DNA of 52,537 bases from Acidobacteriota bacterium (GCA_003696075.1 RFHH01000180.1:1-52537), one strand, 5' to 3'. Counted from the first letter of the stretch, positions 21,245 to 32,310 are shown. Numbers and translations are program-made. Notes: generated by a model from the sequence alone, not told the origin.

Positions 21245-22495
21245 ATGTCAGACCTGAATCCGTTCCACATCGCGCAAAGGCAGTTCGACGAGGCTGCGGA
21301 CCGCCTGGGTCTCGACGACGCGACTCGCGCGTTGCTGCGCGTTCCGCAGCGGGAATACCACTTCACCCTCCCCGTCCGGATGGACGACGGCACGACCCGC
21401 GTCTTCCAGGGCTTCCGCGTCGAGTACAACATGGCTCGGGGTCCGGCGAAGGGCGGCATCCGCTGGCATCCGGACGAGACGATCGACACGGTCCGCGCTC
21501 TCGCGGCGTGGATGACGTGGAAGACCGCCGTCGTCGACATTCCGCTCGGAGGGGGCAAGGGCGGCGTGATCTGCAACCCGAAGGAGATGAGCGAGCGCGA
21601 GAAGGAGGACCTGGCGCGCGCGTACGTGCGGGCCCTCGGCCCGATCCTCGGGGTCCACAAGGACGTTCCCGCCCCCGACGTCTACACGAACCCGCAGATC
21701 ATGGCCTGGATGATGGACGAGTACGAGACGATCGTGCGGGAGTCCCATCCGGGCGTGATCACCGGAAAGCCGATCGCCCTGGGCGGCTCCCAGGGTCGCG
21801 GGGATGCCACGGCACGCGGCGGCCTGTACGTCGTGCGCGAGGCTGCGAAGAAGATCGGCCTCGATCCGGCGACGGCGACGTACGCGATCCAGGGATTCGG
21901 CAATGCCGGCCAGTTCGCCGCCCTGCTCCACGAGGAGGTGCTCGGCGGTGGGAAGCTCGTGGCGGCGAGCGATTCGCGGTGCGCCCGCTACAAGCCCGAC
22001 GGGTTCGACGCGAAGAAGCTCGTCGATCACAAGCTGCGCCACGGGACCCTGGCCGATTATCCGGAAGGCGAGGAGATCACCAACGAGGAGCTTCTCGAGC
22101 TCGACGTGGACATCCTGTATCCGGCGGCGCTCGAGAACCAGATCACCGAGAAGAATGCCGACCGGATCAAGGCTCGCCTGATCTGCGAGCTGGCGAACGG
22201 CCCGACGACTCCGGAGGCCGACCAGATCCTCTACCGCAACGGGAAGCTGGTCCTCCCCGATTTCCTGGCCAACGCCGGCGGGGTGACCGTTTCCTACTTC
22301 GAGCAGGTCCAGAACACGTACAACTACTACTGGACCCTCGAGGACGTGCACAAGCGTCTCGACGCGCGGATGACGACGGCTTTCCACGCCGTGTACGAGA
22401 CGATGAAGCGGGACGAGGTCCATCCCCGGCTGGCCGCCTACATGGTGGCGGTCCGCCGCGTCGCGGAGGCCTGCAAGCTCCGCGGTTGGGTCTGA
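21245..22495 (+). CDS. gdhA: Glutamate dehydrogenase (Glu/Leu/Phe/Val dehydrogenase family)
   Basis: NAD(P)-dependent reversible deamination of glutamate to 2-oxoglutarate, cytoplasmic. In 416 residues the family Lys residues appear in MARGPAKGGIRWHP (K69), TWKTAVVDIPLGGGKGGV (K93 and catalytic-type K105). The Rossmann motif is GFGNAGQFAA and the conserved C-terminal loop is LPDFLANAGGVTVSYFEQVQ. ATG with GAGGAG upstream. Leucine dehydrogenase is less likely because length and motifs fit the GDH branch. It sits between the nuo operon and a strong terminator and faces the signalling operon. Confidence 0.9.
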   Translation: MSDLNPFHIAQRQFDEAADRLGLDDATRALLRVPQREYHFTLPVRMDDGTTRVFQGFRVEYNMARGPAKGGIRWHPDETIDTVRALAAWMTWKTAVVDIPLGGGKGGVICNPKEMSEREKEDLARAYVRALGPILGVHKDVPAPDVYTNPQIMAWMMDEYETIVRESHPGVITGKPIALGGSQGRGDATARGGLYVVREAAKKIGLDPATATYAIQGFGNAGQFAALLHEEVLGGGKLVAASDSRCARYKPDGFDAKKLVDHKLRHGTLADYPEGEEITNEELLELDVDILYPAALENQITEKNADRIKARLICELANGPTTPEADQILYRNGKLVLPDFLANAGGVTVSYFEQVQNTYNYYWTLEDVHKRLDARMTTAFHAVYETMKRDEVHPRLAAYMVAVRRVAEACKLRGWV

Positions 22496-22769: not shown

Positions 22770-25322
22770 TCACGACTCCGCGGCCACGGCCGGGCGGGCG
22801 GCGAGCGCTTCGGCGAGCGCATCGACCCCGATCGGTTTGAGCAGGACGCCGTCCATGCCGGCGGCCAGGCAGGCCTGGCGGGCCTCGTCGAGTGCGTGCG
22901 CGGTGAGGGCGTAGATCCGCGGGCGCAGGCCGAGGGCACGGATGCGCCGCGCTGCCTCCAGGCCGTCCATATTCGGCATCTGCAGGTCCATCAGAACGAC
23001 GTCGTAGCGCTCGCGGCGCGCGGCCTCGACGGCGGCGGCTCCGTCGCACACGGTGTCGGCCCGGTGGCCCAGTTGCTCGAGCAGCTTGACCGCCACCTTC
23101 CGGTTGACGGGGTTGTCCTCGGCCACGAGAACCTTCAGCCGGCGCGAATCGCTGCCCCCGGAGACCGGTAACAAGCGCCGTCGGGGGGGAGCGGAGCCGC
23201 CGACGCGGGCCGCGAGCAGGGCCGCGAGCGGTGCGAAGCGAACCGGCTTCGCCACGAGGGTGAAACCCGCCAGCTCCGGATCCCTCAGGCGGGTTCTCGG
23301 GGTCATGACGATCAAGCTCTCGGCCGAGGGGAGCCGCGAGGCGAGCGTCCGGAGAGCACCGCCGTCACCGCGGGGCGGGGCGGCCGCGAGGACCAGCGGG
23401 TAGATGCCTCCTTTCGCCAGCCGATCGTGCGCCTCGTTCAGGCCGGCCACGGCTTCCACGGCCATCCCCCACCGCAGAAGCTCCTGCTGGAGAACGCTGC
23501 GGCTCCGGGAGTGCGGTTCGACCAGGAGGAGGGCGAGCCCCTTGAGGGCGCTGGGGGCCACTGGATGCGAGGGCTGATCCGGAGCCGGTTCGAGCGGGAT
23601 CGTGAAGCGGAAGGTCGAGCCCCGGCCCGGCGCGCTCTCGACGCCGATCGTCCCGCCCAACAGGTCCACCAGCCGGCGGCAGATGGCGAGGCCCAGCCCG
23701 GTGCCGCCGAACCGGTGGGCGATCGAGCCGTCCGCCTGCCGAAAGCTCTCGAAGATCGCCTCCTGGTGCTCCCTCGCGATCCCCAGCCCCGTGTCCTGGA
23801 CGGCGAACTCCAGATAGGCACGGTCTCGCTGCAAGAGCCCGATGCGGACCGCGATCTCCCCCTCGAGCGTGAATTTCGCCGCGTTGCCGACGAGATTGAA
23901 CAGAATCTGCCGGAGCCGGAGCCGGTCGCACGACACGATGCGAGGGACCTCGCCGGCGATCTCCACCGGCACCACCTCGACCCCGTTCTCTTGCGCCCTG
24001 GCAGCGAGCATCGCCAGCACCTCCTCGACGCACTCGACGATGTCGCAGGGCTCCTTGTTCACCGGCATCCGGCCGGCCTCGATCTTGGACAGGTCCAGGA
24101 TGTCGTTGATGATCGCGAGAAGCGTCTCGCCGTTGCTTCGGATCAGCTCCAGCGACTCCTCCTGTTCCCGGTCGAGTTTCGTCCGCAGGAGCAGGTCGGT
24201 CAGGCCGATCACCGCGTTCAGCGGCGTCCGGATCTCGTGGCTCATGTTGGCCAGGAAAGCGGCCTTCGCGCGCGCCGCGGCTTCCGCCTCCTCGCGCGCC
24301 CGCTCGAGCTGCTCCCGCTTCCGCCTCTCCTCCGTCACGTCCTGCTTGATGGCGATGAAGCGCGCCGGACGGCCTTCGTCGTCGAGAACGGGCGTGATCG
24401 TCATCTGCTCGGTGTAGAGCGTCCCGTCTTTCCTCCTGTTGACGATCTCGCCCCGCCACACGCGGCCCGAGAGAATAGTTGTCCACAGATCCTCGTAGAA
24501 AGCGGGATCGTGACGGCCGGAGCGCAGGATCGCCGGGGTCCTGCCCACCGCCTCCTCCCGGCTGTATCCGGTGAGCTCGGTGAAGGCGCGGTTGACCCAT
24601 TCGATCGTGCCGTCGGCGTTCGCGATCAGCACCGCGTTCGCCGAGGCCTCGAGAGCCGCTGCGCGGACGCGGAGTTCCCATTCGAGCTTCTTGGTCCCCG
24701 ACAGGTTCCGCACCACCGCGAGCAGGGTGGGCCGTTCCGCCAGCGGGGCGTGGGCCAAGGAAACCTCGACGGGCACGCCGGCGAGGGTCCCGTCGCCGGG
24801 GCGCGCCTCACCGGTCCACGTCAGGCCGGCCCGGGCGCAGGGCGGCAGCCCGGGAAGCAGGCGGCGGACGGGGATCCCCTCGATCCTGCCGCCGCGGCCG
24901 CCGAAGAGGCGCCGCGCGCACCGGTTCCCGCCGCTGACCCGCCCGTCCGGATCGACCATGAGCACGGCGTCGGGCAGGGCGTCCAGCAGGCCCGCCAGCC
25001 GCCGGTGGGCGTCTCGGAGTCTCGCCTCCGCGCGCGCGATCGGCCGGAGGACGAAAATCCACAGGGGGGCCGCCAGCAGCGCCGCCAGCAGGCCGGCGTC
25101 CACCAGCGGGAGCAGCGGCCCGAACCGTGCGGGGAGCGGAAAGCGCGCCAGGGCCACCATGACCGCCGACTCGACCAGGAACCCCAGACCGAGCACGGCG
25201 CCGAGGTAGGCGGCGTAGCGCCACACCGTCCCGCTCAGGCGCGGCGCTCTCCCCCCCGGAGCGGCGGCCGCGGATCGGCCGGCCGACTCGCGATCCCCGG
25301 CTCCCGGTGCCGTCGCGCTCAC
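22770..25322 (-). CDS. Membrane-bound hybrid histidine kinase (PAS-PAS-HisKA-HATPase-REC-REC)
   Basis: 850 residues from a GTG start; the open frame extends further upstream only as an overlap of the PilZ and GGDEF genes. Order: two membrane helices (about 34-60 and 69-93); PAS-like domain (114-208); PAS-PAC (221-330); HisKA with H362 in SHEIRTPLN; HATPase with N480 in VGNAAK, DTGLGI and GTGLGL; a first receiver (about 593-706) that is degenerate; and a second receiver (728-842) with the acidic pair E735/D736, phospho-acceptor D779, T807 and K829. The first receiver has VEP and AAAPP where acidic pocket and Asp belong, so it is unlikely to be phosphorylated. Third gene of the GGDEF-PilZ operon. 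Confidence 0.9.
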   Translation of the reverse strand: MSATAPGAGDRESAGRSAAAAPGGRAPRLSGTVWRYAAYLGAVLGLGFLVESAVMVALARFPLPARFGPLLPLVDAGLLAALLAAPLWIFVLRPIARAEARLRDAHRRLAGLLDALPDAVLMVDPDGRVSGGNRCARRLFGGRGGRIEGIPVRRLLPGLPPCARAGLTWTGEARPGDGTLAGVPVEVSLAHAPLAERPTLLAVVRNLSGTKKLEWELRVRAAALEASANAVLIANADGTIEWVNRAFTELTGYSREEAVGRTPAILRSGRHDPAFYEDLWTTILSGRVWRGEIVNRRKDGTLYTEQMTITPVLDDEGRPARFIAIKQDVTEERRKREQLERAREEAEAAARAKAAFLANMSHEIRTPLNAVIGLTDLLLRTKLDREQEESLELIRSNGETLLAIINDILDLSKIEAGRMPVNKEPCDIVECVEEVLAMLAARAQENGVEVVPVEIAGEVPRIVSCDRLRLRQILFNLVGNAAKFTLEGEIAVRIGLLQRDRAYLEFAVQDTGLGIAREHQEAIFESFRQADGSIAHRFGGTGLGLAICRRLVDLLGGTIGVESAPGRGSTFRFTIPLEPAPDQPSHPVAPSALKGLALLLVEPHSRSRSVLQQELLRWGMAVEAVAGLNEAHDRLAKGGIYPLVLAAAPPRGDGGALRTLASRLPSAESLIVMTPRTRLRDPELAGFTLVAKPVRFAPLAALLAARVGGSAPPRRRLLPVSGGSDSRRLKVLVAEDNPVNRKVAVKLLEQLGHRADTVCDGAAAVEAARRERYDVVLMDLQMPNMDGLEAARRIRALGLRPRIYALTAHALDEARQACLAAGMDGVLLKPIGVDALAEALAARPAVAAES

Positions 25323-25336
25323 GGTGCGATGCCCGC

Positions 25337-25918
25337 TCAGGCCCGCTCGCGGAGCTTGGCCCGCTGGAGCTTGAAGGTGTAGCGGACGATCGCCTCCCGG
25401 TCGGCGTCGTTGATCCCCTCGAACCCCGCGCCGAGATGGTAGCGGCCGACCGGCAGGGCCTCGCCGTCGGGGTGGACCACGGAGACGATCCGCGCCACCG
25501 CCCGGACCGTCGCCGTCGTCTCCCCCACCAGCGTCAGCTCGATCTCGACGGGGGTTCCCTGCGGGAGCTTGCACGGAACCACCAGCCCGACTCCCGAACC
25601 GGACAGGGCGGAGGTGACGCCGGAGATCCAGTTCTCGCCGTCGCCCAGGTCGACACTCAATGCCGCGGCGATGCGTTGGATGGTCTGCTCGAGCCGCTCG
25701 AGCTTCTCGATCACCGACGAAAGGGCGGCCCTTTCCCAGGAGACCTCCGTCCCCGGATGGCCGGCGGCGTCGGCCCGGACACGCTCCGTGTAGGTGGGGG
25801 TGCAGGAGAGCCGCTTGGCGAGTTCCTCGGCCTCCGTTTCGTCGAGCGGCCGGAGGCGCACGGGGAGGGGATGTTCCACCCGGGCGAAGCGGCGCGACTG
25901 GACGGTGGGGGTGGTCAT
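25337..25918 (-). CDS. PilZ-domain-like protein with helical insert
   Basis: 193-residue soluble protein. The N-terminus has a PilZ RxxxR signature (R9 to R13 in RRFAR); a helical coiled insert (about 26-90, including SSVIEKLERLEQTIQRIAAAL) follows; then a beta-rich part containing SALSGSGVGLVVPC. The usual second motif (D/N)xSxxG is altered: A104-L-S106-G-S-G109 lacks the Asp/Asn, so c-di-GMP affinity may be reduced. The insert resembles the tetrameric tPilZ class, but that is tentative. Its ATG overlaps the GGDEF gene stop (ATGA), so the two are co-translated; the kinase starts 14 nt after its stop. Confidence 0.78.
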   Translation of the reverse strand: MTTPTVQSRRFARVEHPLPVRLRPLDETEAEELAKRLSCTPTYTERVRADAAGHPGTEVSWERAALSSVIEKLERLEQTIQRIAAALSVDLGDGENWISGVTSALSGSGVGLVVPCKLPQGTPVEIELTLVGETTATVRAVARIVSVVHPDGEALPVGRYHLGAGFEGINDADREAIVRYTFKLQRAKLRERA

Positions 25919-26892
25919 CGGGAGTCCTCCGGGAGGTGCGGCGGGGGGAGGGGCCCCGCGGGCGGAGGTCCGCCCGCCACCCGCCGGCCCCCGGCACGCT
26001 TCGCTTCGAACATCGCGAGATCGGCCAGCTCGAGCAAGCGGGAGGCGCGGCCGCCCGCCTGCTCGAGATCGGCCGCCCCCAGGCTCGCCCCCACCACGAG
26101 GCGCGCCGGGCGGGGCTCCGCCAGCTCCAGCGGCTCCTCCTCGAGCGCCGACAGGAGGCGCCCGCCGAGCTGCACGGCGTTTCGCGCGGTGGTCCACGGG
26201 AGCAGGATCGCGAACTCGTCGCCGCCGAGCCTGGCCGCGACGTCGGCCCGCCGGATCGTCTTCTCCACCGCCCGGGCGCAGCAGCGCAGCGCCTCGTCGC
26301 CGGCTGCATGGCCGAGGCGGTCGTTGATCTCCTTGAAGCGGTCGAGGTCGACCATCAGCACGGCCAGGGGGCGCCGGTAGCGGCGGGCGGCGTGGACCTC
26401 ACGGTCCAGAAACGCCTCGAAGGCCCGGCGGTTGAACAGGCCGGTCAGGGGATCCCGCAGGGCCAGCTCCATCGTTGCAGCGTGGCGGCGGGCGTTGCGC
26501 GCCGGGATGCCGGCGGCCTCCGCCACCTCGCGGAGAGCCGCCAGCGCCGCATCCCGCCGGTCTCCGAGCGCCTCGTCGTCGGCGTAGCCGACCCAGCCGA
26601 GCATCTCCCCCCGGTCCATCACCGGGACCGCGACGAGCGGCGGCACCGGTGCACCCGCCGGGAAGCGGTGGACCCCCCGGTCGCTGGCGATCCGGGAGGG
26701 GCGAGGCGTCCTGCCCTGGAGCGAGACCAGGGCCGTGGCCCCGGGGAGCCGCTCGAGAAGCGCCTCCAGCAGCGACTTTTCGAGATCGGCCGGCTCGAGG
26801 CAGCGGACGAGGTCCAGCAGCAGCCCCGGCGCGCCCCGGGTGGGCGGTTTCCGCACGCCGGGCGGGGCTGGGTGTGTCTCTTCCATGGGCAT
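25915..26892 (-). CDS. Diguanylate cyclase with N-terminal GAF-like domain
   Basis: Makes the second messenger c-di-GMP from two GTP. It has 325 residues: a GAF-like sensor region (about 35-130), then a GGDEF domain with DPLTGLFNRRAFEAFL, VDLDRFKEINDRLGH and an intact active site GGDEF at 223-227. An RxxD product-inhibition site is present at R214-D217, five residues upstream. The C-terminus is Pro-rich. ATG start (an in-frame ATG two codons later is equally possible). No membrane helix, so it is cytoplasmic. First gene of the operon and divergent from the first flagellin gene, suggesting a role in the motility decision. Confidence 0.9.
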   Translation of the reverse strand: MPMEETHPAPPGVRKPPTRGAPGLLLDLVRCLEPADLEKSLLEALLERLPGATALVSLQGRTPRPSRIASDRGVHRFPAGAPVPPLVAVPVMDRGEMLGWVGYADDEALGDRRDAALAALREVAEAAGIPARNARRHAATMELALRDPLTGLFNRRAFEAFLDREVHAARRYRRPLAVLMVDLDRFKEINDRLGHAAGDEALRCCARAVEKTIRRADVAARLGGDEFAILLPWTTARNAVQLGGRLLSALEEEPLELAEPRPARLVVGASLGAADLEQAGGRASRLLELADLAMFEAKRAGGRRVAGGPPPAGPLPPPHLPEDSR

Positions 26893-26986
26893 GTCCAGTT
26901 CCCGGCTCCCGGGACCGTTTCAGGTCTTCACACGATGAAAGATGGACATGCTCGAACCGGAGGGCAAGAAATCCGACCGGAAGTCC

Positions 26987-27013
26987 TAAAGACCGGCCCC
27001 GGGCGGCCGAGAA
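26987..27013 (+). promoter_or_regulatory. Sigma28 (FliA) promoter of the first flagellin gene
   Basis: TAAA (26987-26990), exactly 15 nt, then GCCGAGAA (27006-27013). The enterobacterial sigma28 consensus is TAAA-N15-GCCGATAA, so only one base differs. A start near 27020 gives a leader of about 70 nt. Confidence 0.85.
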
Positions 27014-27091: not shown

Positions 27092-27928
27092 ATGGCTGCC
27101 TTCTCGGTCGTGACCAATATCGGGGCACTCAACGCCCAGAACAGCCTCATCAAGACGGAGCGGGGGCTGCAGACGACGCTGAGCCGCATGTCGTCCGGGC
27201 TGCGCATCAACGGCGCGAAGGACGATGCCGCCGGCCTTGCGATCGCGGAGAACCTGCGCGCCGACATCCAGGGCCTCAATCAGGCCATCCGGAACGCCAA
27301 CGACGGGATCAGCATCATCAATGTCGCCGACTCGGCGCTGGAGGAGATCTCGAACCTGCTCCAGCGGGCGATGACGCTGGCGGAGCAGGCCTCCTCGGAC
27401 ACGTCGGGAGCCGATTCCAGCTCGTCGAAGTCGGCGATCAACGACGAATACAACCAGATCCTTTCGGAGATCGACCGGATCGCCGCGACGGTGGAGTTCA
27501 ACGGGCTCAAGCTGCTCAGCGGCTCGGGCACGACGATCGACGTCCAGATCGGCGTCGGCTCCAGCACCGACGACCGCCTCACGATCGTGACCTCCGCGAT
27601 CACCGCGGCCGGCCTCGGGCTGACTTCCGACGCCCTCCTGACGAAGTCGGACGCCCGCCTGGAGCTGGTGGAGATCCAGTCGGCGATCGACACGGTCTCC
27701 TCCGATCGCGGGGATCTCGGTGCCGCCTTCAACCGGCTCGAGCACACGATCTCGGTGATCACCGTGCAGGCCGAGAACCTGTCCGCGGCCGAGAGCCAGA
27801 TCCGGGACGCGAACGTCGCGGCCGAGGTCGTCAACATGGCGAAGTTCCAGGTGTTGACGCAGACGGGTCTCGCGGCACTGGCCCAGGCGAACTCGAGCGC
27901 CCAGAGCGTCCTGGCGCTTCTCCGGTAG
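27092..27928 (+). CDS. fliC: Flagellin (first copy)
   Basis: Filament subunit, exported by the flagellar type III apparatus. 278 residues, a short flagellin consisting almost only of conserved D0/D1 domains: N-terminal NIGALNAQNSL, LSRMSSGLRINGAKDDAAGL, NANDGISIINVADSAL; C-terminal AAESQIRDANVAAEVVNM and AQANSSAQSVLALL. The variable D2/D3 region is minimal. ATG follows a GGAGG ribosome site. Same length as the second copy and clearly paralogous, but with many substitutions. Confidence 0.97.
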   Translation: MAAFSVVTNIGALNAQNSLIKTERGLQTTLSRMSSGLRINGAKDDAAGLAIAENLRADIQGLNQAIRNANDGISIINVADSALEEISNLLQRAMTLAEQASSDTSGADSSSSKSAINDEYNQILSEIDRIAATVEFNGLKLLSGSGTTIDVQIGVGSSTDDRLTIVTSAITAAGLGLTSDALLTKSDARLELVEIQSAIDTVSSDRGDLGAAFNRLEHTISVITVQAENLSAAESQIRDANVAAEVVNMAKFQVLTQTGLAALAQANSSAQSVLALLR

Positions 27929-28041: not shown

Positions 28042-28068
28042 TAAAGCGGGCCGCCCGCCTGCCGAAAC
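28042..28068 (+). promoter_or_regulatory. Sigma28 (FliA) promoter of the second flagellin gene
   Basis: TAAA (28042-28045), exactly 15 nt, then GCCGAAAC (28061-28068), matching TAAA-N15-GCCGATAA at all but two positions. Predicted start near 28075, leaving a leader of about 165 nt. Confidence 0.85.
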
Positions 28069-28242: not shown

Positions 28243-29079
28243 ATGGCCACTTTCTCGGTCGTCCACAACATTCAGTCGCTCGTCGCGCAGAACCATCTCA
28301 CCCGGACGCAGCGCGGCCTCAGCCAGACGCTGGACCGCCTCTCTTCCGGCCTGCGCATCAACGGCGCGAAGGATGACGCGGCAGGCCTCGCGATCGCCGA
28401 GACTCTGCGCGCCGACGTCGCGGCGTTGAACCAGGGCGTGCGCAACGCGAACGATGGCATCGGCGTGATCAACGTCGCCGACGCCGCCCTCCAGGAGATC
28501 GGCAACCTGGTCCAGCGGGCGGTGACCCTCGCCCAGCAGGCAGCCTCCGAGACCTCCGGGCAGGACAGCTCCACTTCCAAGGCGGCCTTGAACGACGAGT
28601 ACAACCAGATCCTGTCCGAGATCGACCGGATCGCCGCTACCGTCGAGTTCAACGGCCTGAAGCTCATCGACGGCTCGGGAACCTCGATCGACATCCAGAT
28701 CGGCACCGGTTCCAGCGCCAACGACCGCCTGACGGTGACGATCAGCGGGATCAGCGCGAGCACCCTCGGCCTGACCTCCGACTCGCTGCTGACCGCCTCC
28801 GACGCGCGGCTCGAGCTGGTGAACCTCCAGTCGGCCGTCGACACGATCTCGTCCGACCGCGGCACCCTCGGCGCCGCCCAGAACCGTCTCGAGGCGACGA
28901 TCAGCGTGATCACGACCCAGGCGGAGAACCTGCAGGCGGCCGAGAGCCAGATCCGGGATGCCAACATCGCGGCGGAAGTGGTCAACCTGACCAAGTTCCA
29001 GGTGCTCAACCAGACCGGCCTCGCGGCGCTGGCTCAGGCCAACGCGAGCGCCCAGAGCGTCCTGGCGCTGCTCGGCTGA
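28243..29079 (+). CDS. fliC: Flagellin (second copy)
   Basis: Second filament subunit, also 278 residues. It has the same conserved ends (LDRLSSGLRINGAKDDAAGL near the N-terminus; AAESQIRDANIAAEVVNL and AQANASAQSVLALLG at the C-terminus). The ATG is chosen by AGGGAGG upstream and homology with the first copy; the frame is open further upstream without a ribosome site. Differences from copy one are spread along the protein, concentrated in the middle (residues about 150-185), suggesting an old duplication and possible distinct positions in the filament. Confidence 0.97.
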   Translation: MATFSVVHNIQSLVAQNHLTRTQRGLSQTLDRLSSGLRINGAKDDAAGLAIAETLRADVAALNQGVRNANDGIGVINVADAALQEIGNLVQRAVTLAQQAASETSGQDSSTSKAALNDEYNQILSEIDRIAATVEFNGLKLIDGSGTSIDIQIGTGSSANDRLTVTISGISASTLGLTSDSLLTASDARLELVNLQSAVDTISSDRGTLGAAQNRLEATISVITTQAENLQAAESQIRDANIAAEVVNLTKFQVLNQTGLAALAQANASAQSVLALLG

Positions 29080-29201: not shown

Positions 29202-29591
29202 ATGACGGCGGACAGCCTCACGTTCGAGGGAAGGATCGCGGCCGGTACGCCGGTCCCCGGATCCGGTCCGTCGCCGCCGGCGGTGCGCCCCGAACCTCCG
29301 GCAGCACCGCCCCCGCGAGCCGCGGAGACGGCAGGCGACCGGCCGCCGGTGCCGGCGGACGCCCCGCAGTTCCTCGAGGACCTCAAGCGGCAGCTGGCGG
29401 AGATCCAGGCCCGGGGCAGCCTCAGGCAGCTCCGCCTGGACTACGAGATCCGGGACGGGAACGTCGTGGTGGTCAAGATCCTCGACGCGGAGACCGATAA
29501 GGTCATCCGGACGGTCCCCCCCGAGGAACAACTCGAGCTGGCGCGCCGGCTCGAGGAATACCTCGGCCTGGTCCTGGACGAGACCGCCTGA
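29202..29591 (+). CDS. flaG: FlaG-family flagellar protein
   Basis: 129 residues: a Pro/Ala-rich disordered N-terminus (about 1-55) and a conserved FlaG domain (RLDYEIRDGNVVVVKILDAE, then VIRTVPPEEQLELARRL, with the family I(R)xVPPEE motif). FlaG proteins affect filament length or assembly and usually sit between flagellin and fliD, as here. ATG with GGAGGGAG upstream. Confidence 0.9.
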   Translation: MTADSLTFEGRIAAGTPVPGSGPSPPAVRPEPPAAPPPRAAETAGDRPPVPADAPQFLEDLKRQLAEIQARGSLRQLRLDYEIRDGNVVVVKILDAETDKVIRTVPPEEQLELARRLEEYLGLVLDETA

Positions 29592-29636
29592 GCGGCCGGC
29601 GGCGGTCCCGGGCCGGAGGGGGCTGGAGGACACCGC

Positions 29637-31550
29637 ATGCCGCTCGGAAGCATCGCCTTCGGTCAGGGGCTGGTCTCGGGCCTCGACTTCCGCTCGATCA
29701 TCGACGCGCTGCTCGAGGCGGAGCGGGCCCCGATCAAGACGCTCCAGAAGCGCATCGACACTTTCAACCGCGCGAAGAGCTCGGCGGAGGAACTCTCGGG
29801 CCTGCTCGAAACCTTCAAGAGCAAGCTCGAGGAGCTCAGCTCGGACACGGGGGTCGGTGGCAAGACGGCGTCCCTGGACGACGAGACCGCGCTCACGGCG
29901 AGCGCCCGGCCCGGAGCGCTGGCGGGAACCTACCAGATCGAGGTGACCCGGATCGCCCAGGCTCACCGTGTCCGCTCGGACGGGTTCGCCGACAGGTACT
30001 CGCCTCTCGTTTCCGACGGCACGATCACGATCCAGTCGGGATCGAACGACACGATCACGATCGACGTCAGCGCCGCGAACGGCAACAACTCCTTGCGCGC
30101 TATCGCCGACGAGATCAACAACGCCGACGCCGGTGTCATCGCGTCGATCGTCAATGACGGCAGCAGCGACATCCTCATCGTCCGCGCCGAGGAAACCGGC
30201 ACCGAGAATGCGTTGACGATCACCGACACCACGAACCTCAATCTCGACGACGCCGGGAACGAGCTCCAGCCGGCTCAGGACGCCGAGCTCATCATCGACG
30301 GGATCACGGTGACCTCCTCCTCCAACACCGTCACCGGCGCGATCCAGGGCGTCACGCTCGAACTGACCGCCGAGACGACCTCCCCGGTCACGCTCACCGT
30401 GGCCGACGACGTCGAGGGAGCCAAGCAGGCGCTCCGGGATTTCGTGGAGGCGTACAACGAGGTCAACGACTACTTCGACAAGAACTTCGGGTCCGCGGAG
30501 CTGGAGTCGGCCTCCGCCGTCGCCGGTGACGCCTTGATCCGCGGCATCCAGCGGCAGCTGCAGCAGCTCCTCACCGGTTCGGTGACCGGGATCCCGGATG
30601 GAAAACTCGACTCGCTCTCCGAGCTGGGAATTCTGGTCGCCGACGGGACCGGCCGCCTCGAGTTCAAGGAGTCGACCTTCGACGACATCGTCGAGCAGGG
30701 ACGGTTCGACGAGGTCCGTGCCGTCATTCAGTCCACCGGGACCGCGACCGACGGCTCGGTGGTCTTCCTCAGCGCCGGTTCGAACGCCGTACCCGGAACC
30801 TACGCCGTGCACATCACGCAGGCCGCGGAGAAGGCCGAGGTCCGCGGCGGGACCGCCATCCGCTCGCAGGGCATTTCCAAGAACGAGACCCTGACGATCA
30901 CGCTGAACGGGACCTCCACGGACGTCGCCCTGGCGAAGAACGACACGATTTCCGTGATCGTCGACAAGATCAACGCCGCCCTCGACGCCGCGGGAATTGA
31001 GGCGACGGCGCTGGACGACAACGGCGTGCTGGTCATCCAGGCCAACGACTACGGCTCCCAGTACGACCTGACGGTCGTGAGCGACCGCCAGGCGAAGGGC
31101 GACGGGAAGAGCACGGAGATCGGGACCACGCCGCAGAACAGCGTCGGCGTGGATGTCGCCGGCACCATCGGCGGCGAGACGGGCGTGGGCACCGGCCAGG
31201 TGCTCGTCGGCCCGGACGGCACCGACGTGGACGGGATCAGGATCCGCGTCTACGCGACGGCGGACTCGGTGGCGGCGAAGGGCGGCGACTTCGGGACCGT
31301 CGGCTACAGCCTGGGCGTCGCGGACCGCTTCATCAACGCCATCGACGACATCACGGACCCCTTCGAGGGAACGATCCACGCGCTGACGGAGGGGCTTCAG
31401 GACTCGATCGACACGATCCAGGAGCGGATCGACGCGATCAACGCCCGGCTGGTGCGGCGCGAGGAACTGCTCGTGCGCCAGTTCTCGGCCGCGGAGCAGG
31501 CGATCGCGCAGTTGCAACAAATGCAGGCCTCCCTGCAGCAGAGGGCCTGA
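29637..31550 (+). CDS. fliD: Flagellar filament cap protein FliD
   Basis: Caps the growing filament and helps flagellin fold. 637 residues, longer than the roughly 470 of E. coli. N-terminal coiled D0 (GLVSGLDFRSIIDALLEAER), a first surface domain (AGTYQIEVTRIAQAHRVRSD to DILIVRAEETG), FliD_C with a coiled end (IDTIQERIDAINARLVRREE). A second, inserted surface domain (residues about 365-490; PGTYAVHITQAAEKAEVRGG to GVLVIQANDYGSQYDLTV) repeats the layout of the first, pointing to internal duplication. Followed by fliS 18 nt later. Confidence 0.95.
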   Translation: MPLGSIAFGQGLVSGLDFRSIIDALLEAERAPIKTLQKRIDTFNRAKSSAEELSGLLETFKSKLEELSSDTGVGGKTASLDDETALTASARPGALAGTYQIEVTRIAQAHRVRSDGFADRYSPLVSDGTITIQSGSNDTITIDVSAANGNNSLRAIADEINNADAGVIASIVNDGSSDILIVRAEETGTENALTITDTTNLNLDDAGNELQPAQDAELIIDGITVTSSSNTVTGAIQGVTLELTAETTSPVTLTVADDVEGAKQALRDFVEAYNEVNDYFDKNFGSAELESASAVAGDALIRGIQRQLQQLLTGSVTGIPDGKLDSLSELGILVADGTGRLEFKESTFDDIVEQGRFDEVRAVIQSTGTATDGSVVFLSAGSNAVPGTYAVHITQAAEKAEVRGGTAIRSQGISKNETLTITLNGTSTDVALAKNDTISVIVDKINAALDAAGIEATALDDNGVLVIQANDYGSQYDLTVVSDRQAKGDGKSTEIGTTPQNSVGVDVAGTIGGETGVGTGQVLVGPDGTDVDGIRIRVYATADSVAAKGGDFGTVGYSLGVADRFINAIDDITDPFEGTIHALTEGLQDSIDTIQERIDAINARLVRREELLVRQFSAAEQAIAQLQQMQASLQQRA

Positions 31551-31568
31551 GGAAGGAGCGGCACGCGA

Positions 31569-31973
31569 ATGAGCTATGCGCTGAGCGCAGAGCGGGCCAG
31601 GGCGGCTTACCAGGCGAACACGGTGCGGGACGACGACCCGCTGGGCCTCGTGGTGAAGCTGTACGACGGGATGCTCGGTTTCCTCCGGCGCGGCAGCGAG
31701 CTGCTGGAGGAGAGCCGGTACCGGGAGGCGGCCGAACCGATTCGCCGCGCCACCGACATCGTCGGCGAGCTGCAGGCCGTGCTCGATCTCGACCGGGGCG
31801 GCGAGGTGGCCGCCAACCTGGACCGGCTGTACACGTACGCCCGCCGTCGCATCGTGGAGGCCCATCTCGGGTCCGATCCCGCGGGGCTGCGGGAGGTGGC
31901 GGATCTTCTGCAGCCGCTGCGCGACGCGTGGGCGGAGGCGCGCGAGAAGACGCTCGCCGCCGGCGTGCGTTGA
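31569..31973 (+). CDS. fliS: Flagellin export chaperone FliS
   Basis: Cytoplasmic chaperone that binds flagellin C-termini before export. 134 residues, all-helical, with the typical N-terminal YQANTV segment, then LVVKLYDGMLGFLRRGSELL and LDRLYTYARRRIVEAHL. Normal length. ATG preceded by GGAAGGAG. Order fliD-fliS-fliT-like is the common one. Confidence 0.95.
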   Translation: MSYALSAERARAAYQANTVRDDDPLGLVVKLYDGMLGFLRRGSELLEESRYREAAEPIRRATDIVGELQAVLDLDRGGEVAANLDRLYTYARRRIVEAHLGSDPAGLREVADLLQPLRDAWAEAREKTLAAGVR

Positions 31974-31983
31974 GGGCGGTTCG

Positions 31984-32310
31984 ATGACGCAGAACGAAGC
32001 CGCCCGCGCTGCGGAGGTCGCCGGCCGACTGGAGCGGCTGATGGCGGCGGAACGGGATCTCGTCGCGAGCGGGCGGATTGCCGAGCTGGAGGGCATCGTC
32101 GAGGAACGGCGGCGGGCGATCGAGGAGTTGAACGCGCTTCTGCCGGCCGGCCCGGTCGAGGACGGCGATTTGAAGGAACGGGTCGACCGGCTCGCCGGGC
32201 AGGTGCGCCGGAACCTCGCGCTCCTGCTGAGCCTCCGAGACGAACTCTCGAAAGCGCTGTCCCGGTCGCATCGCCTCCGGCGGGCGGTGGAGAACTACGC
32301 TCGCAGCTGA
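31984..32310 (+). CDS. FliT-like flagellar chaperone (tentative)
   Basis: 108-residue, all-helical, charged protein (LERLMAAERDLVASGRIAEL; VEERRRAIEELNALL; LRDELSKALSRSHRLRRAVE). Sequence is too degenerate to separate FliT from FlgN, but size, helicity and position right after fliS favour FliT, the FliD chaperone. Ten bases after fliS, last gene before a strong terminator. Confidence 0.6.
   Translation: MTQNEAARAAEVAGRLERLMAAERDLVASGRIAELEGIVEERRRAIEELNALLPAGPVEDGDLKERVDRLAGQVRRNLALLLSLRDELSKALSRSHRLRRAVENYARS

Follow-up and report, generated by a model that had tools for sequence, protein, structure and literature searches.

A cyclase gene and a PilZ gene lie back to back with flagellin

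The subject of this work is a gene pair in a 52,537-nucleotide stretch of DNA from an Acidobacteriota bacterium (GCA_003696075.1 RFHH01000180.1:1-52537), which we call, at its full length, the window. On the minus strand, a gene for a GGDEF protein, a predicted diguanylate cyclase that would make the second messenger cyclic diguanosine monophosphate (c-di-GMP), is followed by a gene for a PilZ protein, and both are divergent from the first of two flagellin genes. An earlier note on this DNA had grouped them with the next gene, that of a membrane hybrid histidine kinase, and saw in the three a candidate switch between motile and sessile states. The trio is not supported by our analysis; a conserved pair is. 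The pair and the region it shares with flagellin contain the following features (nt, nucleotides; aa, amino acids):

25915..26892, minus strand: gene for the GAF-GGDEF predicted diguanylate cyclase (325 aa; PF00990, alignment, AlphaFold2 model)
25337..25918, minus strand: PilZ gene (193 aa; PF07238; two-helix heptad insert between strands 1 and 2)
25915..25918, minus strand: ATGA stop/start overlap of the GGDEF and PilZ genes (4 nt)
26939..26967, minus strand: conserved promoter-like element of the GGDEF-PilZ operon (TTGCC-N18-CANNTT)
26987..27013, plus strand: sigma28-type promoter of the first flagellin (TAAA-N15-GCCGAGAA)
27092..27928, plus strand: first flagellin, fliC1, divergent from the GGDEF-PilZ operon

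The stop codon of the first gene and the start codon of the second share the letters ATGA, confirming the 4-nt overlap described earlier. Conservation was analysed in a family set of 12 genomes (G000-G011), comprising the 3.29-Mb assembly that contains the window (G000) and its relatives, which are Acidobacteriota metagenome-assembled genomes (MAGs). A full-length ortholog of the GAF-GGDEF protein was found in 11 of the 12 (E 1e-145 to 2.1e-86) and was missing in G002; the remaining GGDEF matches in the family were at about 1e-58 or weaker and mostly covered the catalytic part only or little more. Flagellin is present in exactly the 11 genomes that carry the cyclase ortholog, G002 having none, and in all 11 the cyclase gene is divergent from a flagellin gene. 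The PilZ gene lies directly downstream of the cyclase gene in 10 of these 11 genomes. The ATGA overlap recurs in seven of the 10 that have both genes (G000, G003, G004, G006, G007, G009 and G010), and the two genes are separated by 0 nt in G005, 4 nt in G011 and 66 nt in G001.

The association with flagellin extends beyond the family. Among 41 genomes of the class, and with a PilZ threshold of E <= 1e-15, flagellin was found in 15, PilZ in 14 and both in 13 (Fisher p 8e-8, calculated without correction for phylogeny). In three genomes from two other families of the class (G018, G033 and G020) the PilZ gene immediately precedes flagellin and has the same orientation. In G033 a cyclase with another architecture, HDOD-GGDEF (L038:10105-12315), takes the place of the GAF-GGDEF protein, its gene ending 30 nt before PilZ. 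A phylum-wide search, with scoring limited to the 8 best candidates of each genome, found no PilZ member outside the class at E 1e-15, so weaker members may have been missed.

The GGDEF protein is a predicted GAF-GGDEF cyclase

The GGDEF protein matched PF00990 with 138.8 bits (cutoff 23.8; E 1.7e-40). In the alignment of 10 orthologs the signature G223-G-D-E-F227 and residues D182, N190 and D199 are invariant, as is the intact RxxD inhibitory site (I-site), R214-D217. With both catalytic and I-site residues intact, the protein is predicted to be a diguanylate cyclase. Its N-terminus, judged by weak Pfam matches and by the predicted fold, is GAF-like, a feature beyond what the earlier note had recorded. 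The AlphaFold2 (AF2) model (predicted local distance difference test, pLDDT, 85.6) has a long linking helix, and its fold matches included bacteriophytochrome cyclases and Dcsbis (4ZMU). GAF-GGDEF cyclases of the Dcsbis type share the domain layout and fold of the window protein, which differs from them by its link to flagellin and PilZ. The Pfam scan gave no match to a receiver domain of the PleD/WspR type, the fold being GAF-like instead.

The PilZ protein resembles XCC6012

The PilZ protein matched PF07238 with 41.1 bits (cutoff 22.5), and the profile match, the AF2 model and Foldseek agree on a PilZ split barrel. Across 13 members, residues R9, R13, S106, G109, R139 and D173 are invariant. 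The RxxxR motif of canonical c-di-GMP receptors is thus present in all 13 through R9 and R13. The second motif, (D/N)xSxxG, is incomplete: S106 and G109 occur in all 13 members, and the D/N residue in only two, the position being occupied in the other 11 by A, S, T or Q (Ala in the window protein). Because D/N is mostly lost, affinity for c-di-GMP may be weak or absent.

The AF2 model, built from 9 sequences (pLDDT 77.8), consists of strand 1, two helices (27-39 and 61-87), the barrel and a C-terminal helix. In the insert, 86% of the heptad a and d positions are strongly hydrophobic in the best register, compared with 61% in the next. In Foldseek, the Xanthomonas protein XCC6012 (3PH1, 3RQA) took ranks 1-7 over 177-188 alignment columns, nearly the full length, although the match is moderate (TM score 0.39-0.47, high root mean square deviation) and the model comes from a 9-sequence alignment. 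A separate method, a profile search of PDB sequences, also placed XCC6012 first (E 0.007) with the heptad and C-terminal helices aligned; a PDB search with the single PilZ sequence yielded nothing beyond coiled-coil noise and a weak match to the PilZ of a cellulose synthase. The two-helix insert typical of XCC6012, a PilZ that forms a parallel tetramer through the inserted helix (tPilZ), is therefore indicated by the model helices, the heptad register and the top fold and profile matches. PF07238 is the one PilZ model of Pfam that the window protein and its relatives matched. PF16823, the family named tPilZ, was not matched, so the kinship with tPilZ rests on fold and remote profile. By predicted structure and sequence profile, the best match for the protein is a PilZ of the XCC6012/FlgZ type.

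After XCC6012, Foldseek ranked MotI and then the PilZ domain of YcgR. YcgR, MotI/DgrA and MotL are PilZ proteins tied to flagella, on which they act as brakes or clutches. The window protein differs from YcgR, MotI and MotL in having the heptad insert instead of a YcgR-N domain: its 193 aa start at the RxxxR strand, leaving no YcgR-N/PilZN domain.

Related PilZ genes are linked to filament genes in other lineages

A search of the genome collection with a 9-row PilZ alignment gave 8 loci. In four genomes, a Myxococcales MAG (L089) and three others from the same class (L094, L095, L096), the PilZ homologs are found in the neighbourhood of fliS. The order there is fliS (called in three of the four), a gene the size of fliT, one encoding about 200 aa, and PilZ. 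These four homologs carry an N-terminal extension that looks YcgR-N-like by eye and has no Pfam match. The gene encoding about 200 aa is uncharacterised and stands before PilZ in all four loci. Helical inserts in the PilZ domain, located between barrel strands 1 and 2 as in the window protein, are described in the part of PMC11800159 considered here for YcgR-like proteins of Myxococcota and others, several of which keep the binding motifs. This group is probably the one found here as L089-L096, and the same passages make no mention of pairing with a cyclase or of an Acidobacteriota branch.

In Xanthomonas, XCC6012 (identical to XC2249; PMC3131395) and FlgZ are likewise stand-alone PilZ proteins of similar length (188 aa). 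XCC6012 has 57 residues with two helices inserted after strand 1 and lacks RxxxR (PMC3131395), so that it shares with the window protein the two heptad-bearing helices between strands 1 and 2. It retains only SxxG, unlike the window protein, which has both RxxxR and SxxG, and isothermal titration calorimetry gave no reliable c-di-GMP binding (PMC3131395); according to a review, XC_2249 is able to bind c-di-GMP (PMC3749722). The surroundings are also alike, in gene neighbourhood, effect on motility and binding of GGDEF proteins (PMC3131395, PMC5550985, PMC3749722). The xanthomonad gene is located after fliC, fliD and fliS, and knockout of XC2249 lowers motility (PMC3131395). In X. oryzae pv. 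oryzae (Xoo), flgZ shares a transcript with fliS and fliTX and needs RpoN2/FleQ and FliA (PMC5550985). In a complex that also contains RpfG, XC_2249 is bound to two GGDEF proteins, and it contacts PilT/PilU (PMC3749722). The arrangements differ in that the window PilZ gene has a cyclase partner of its own and lies on the other strand from flagellin, whereas Xoo flgZ is the last gene of fliS-fliTX-flgZ. In the literature on Acidobacteriota flagella, c-di-GMP and PilZ we found no paper on the present gene arrangement.

The gene set linked to XCC6012-like PilZ proteins in these lineages is that of the late filament cluster, which in the window lies beyond fliC1. Its gene names were assigned from cluster context and conservation, without a Pfam scan.

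28042..28068, plus strand: sigma28-type promoter of the second flagellin
28243..29079, plus strand: second flagellin, fliC2
29202..32310, plus strand: late filament cluster (flaG 29202-29591, fliD 29637-31550, fliS 31569-31973, fliT-like 31984-32310)

The pair and flagellin have separate promoter elements

The earlier note had placed a sigma28 promoter of the first flagellin in the region upstream of the divergent operon, and the element is there: TAAA-N15-GCCGAGAA ends 78 nt upstream of fliC1. The pattern CTAAAG-N14-GCCGANA has two matches in the window, both before flagellin genes, versus 0 expected. The flagellin element is found at fixed spacing in all 11 flagellin-bearing genomes of the family, diverged in some.

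For the GGDEF operon, no convincing sigma28 or sigma54 site was found on its strand. That strand carries instead TTGC(C/T)-N18-CANNTT in 10 of the 11 genomes, with one change in G008. Shuffled sequences match the pattern in 0.024 of 11 on average, a figure that flatters the element because the pattern was derived from an alignment of those same sequences; G005, which was outside that alignment, also matches. In the window, the element is the sole match (0.09 expected). We infer that it is a housekeeping-type promoter, with putative -35 and -10 boxes and a 17-nt spacer, separate from the sigma28 tier.

The hybrid kinase is outside the conserved pair

The third gene of the proposed trio follows PilZ on the same strand:

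22770..25322, minus strand: membrane hybrid histidine kinase (850 aa, GTG start at 25322)

The earlier note had it begin 14 nt after PilZ. A frame with a GTG does begin there, but no Shine-Dalgarno sequence is evident before this codon, which makes both the true start and the 14-nt gap uncertain. The description as a membrane protein holds, as the product has two hydrophobic segments, followed by PAS, HisKA and HATPase domains, a receiver-like segment without the phospho-acceptor Asp and one intact receiver. The operon contains neither an Hpt domain nor a separate receiver. With a cyclase that is GAF-like and has no receiver, a phosphorelay feeding c-di-GMP production, as had been proposed, is left without visible wiring.

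Conservation of the trio in other genomes, the check that the earlier note had named, fails: among the relatives with a readable flank (G001, G003, G004, G005, G009 and G010), none of the six has the kinase at the locus. Downstream of PilZ there is instead a convergent gene of unknown function in G001, a LuxR-type regulator in G003, a glutamate dehydrogenase (GDH)-like gene in G005, a phosphotransferase system (PTS)-like gene (by eye) with Nuo genes in G004 and G010, and a serine-hydrolase-like gene (by eye) in G009. No full-length ortholog was found in the relatives, which match the kinase over the catalytic core only (34-47% identity). The hybrid kinase near the Nuo operon of G009 is on the opposite strand and similar only in the core. 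Since the six readable loci of relatives have no hybrid kinase, the gene is best read as an insertion between the Nuo block and the conserved pair. On this synteny and the core-only matches we rejected it as a module member; it appears to be genome-specific and at most an add-on. What survives of the proposed motile/sessile switch is the GGDEF-PilZ pair, its divergence from flagellin and the promoters on both sides, all conserved in the family. A link to motility draws support from the linkage in the genomes and from a structural relative that has been characterised.

A probable c-di-GMP module for the flagellum

The reading we favour, and consider reasonably probable, is that the pair forms a two-gene c-di-GMP module dedicated to the flagellum. 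It is probably a dedicated swim/stop switch, because in almost all flagellated relatives the two genes adjoin the main flagellin gene in a back-to-back arrangement. The cytoplasmic GAF-GGDEF cyclase, expressed from its own promoter divergent from flagellin, would make c-di-GMP once the GAF-like domain senses a cue. The co-translated PilZ protein would be the paired receptor, reading c-di-GMP locally, through direct contact with the cyclase, or both, and would probably oligomerise through the inserted heptad helix. It might then restrain the flagellum, acting on the motor in the manner of YcgR and MotI or on late export and assembly of the filament, and so move cells toward the sessile state.

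Several points weigh against this reading. G008 has the cyclase and flagellin without PilZ, G002 has PilZ without flagellin, and in the wider class G029 has flagellin without PilZ. The fold match to XCC6012 is moderate, as given above, and linkage does not reveal whether the effect is positive or negative. In Xanthomonas, XC_2249 controls motility independently of c-di-GMP binding and of the enzymatic activity of GGDEF proteins, and the movement in question depends on pili (PMC3749722). Our chief reservation concerns c-di-GMP binding itself, because the second PilZ motif is without its D/N.

That reservation leads to the strongest rival, in which the PilZ protein would serve as a scaffold, in direct contact with the GGDEF protein and acting on its target whether or not c-di-GMP is bound, as has been reported for XC_2249 with the type IV pilus motors PilT/PilU. 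We regard this as unlikely, even though the closest structural relative of the protein, XCC6012/XC2249, binds two GGDEF proteins and PilT/PilU with c-di-GMP binding dispensable (PMC3749722), and the D/N residue is mostly lost: RxxxR and SxxG are invariant in 13/13 members, whereas XCC6012 has no RxxxR (PMC3131395), and the linkage observed is to filament genes, not pilus genes. More speculative, and in our estimate decidedly unlikely, is a model in which an oligomer of the heptad-insert PilZ serves as a hub that holds GAF-GGDEF dimers at the flagellum and gates late filament export (FliS/FliT/FliD), not the motor, with Xanthomonas FlgZ/XC2249 as a derived form in which c-di-GMP binding is largely lost. 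The phosphorelay switch of kinase, GGDEF and PilZ proposed in the earlier note is improbable. The tandem, one-strand order of the three genes in this genome, with the 4-nt overlap and 14-nt gap, speaks for it, as does the Xanthomonas RpfC/RpfG phosphorelay, which converges on GGDEF proteins and XC_2249 (PMC3749722). It has to face a cyclase with GAF in place of a receiver, an operon without Hpt, a kinase start without an evident ribosome site and no full-length ortholog, with convergent, unrelated or regulator genes at the kinase position in 6/6 readable relatives.

Two further readings seem to us very improbable. If the pair controlled the divergent flagellin promoter, with c-di-GMP setting flagellin transcription, the conserved back-to-back promoters would be explained; yet neither protein has a recognised DNA-binding domain (a GapR-like match to PilZ has E 0.16), flagellin has an ordinary sigma28 promoter, and in other families this PilZ gene precedes flagellin, with both genes on one strand. 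The genes might also be hitch-hiking neighbours in a conserved locus without shared function, as the adjacent Nuo genes, which are also syntenic in G004, G009 and G010, have no known functional link. However, across the class the orthologs of cyclase and PilZ are lost or retained together with flagellin, PilZ has a different cyclase partner in G033, and PilZ is filament-linked in the Myxococcales-type genomes and in Xanthomonas (PMC3131395).

If the pair is a module for the flagellum, it bears on an open problem in c-di-GMP signalling, namely how one cyclase among several drives one output without cross-talk, for which a translationally coupled cyclase-receptor pair that tracks flagellin family-wide would offer a clear example from nature. 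The pair also links an odd class of PilZ proteins, known mainly from Xanthomonas and disputed there as c-di-GMP binders, with filament genes in three phyla. Because the Acidobacteriota branch retains most of the binding residues, whether such proteins began as real receptors becomes testable.

Neighbouring genes and other PilZ proteins

In the window, a glutamate dehydrogenase gene (21245-22495) converges on the kinase. GDH-like genes are also close downstream of the pair or the cyclase in G005 and G008 (about 30% identity). In G008 (L075:1504-3253), a LuxR-type response regulator takes the place of PilZ after the flagellin-divergent GAF-GGDEF gene. The PilZ gene of G002 (L028:8226-10104) is convergent with that of a GGDEF protein carrying its own PilZ match. 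The genome of the window also encodes a 532-aa PAS-GGDEF-PilZ fusion protein (C37, L077:4595-6193), and PilZ matches lie in open frames of 427-476 aa in at least six family genomes; with such frames of similar size, cyclase and PilZ may also occur fused in the family. Another protein of the same genome (C34, L081:7747-10062) has two PilZ matches in its C-terminal part and an N-terminus that, by eye, resembles a cellulose-synthase-type glycosyltransferase, pointing to a possible c-di-GMP-controlled polysaccharide output.

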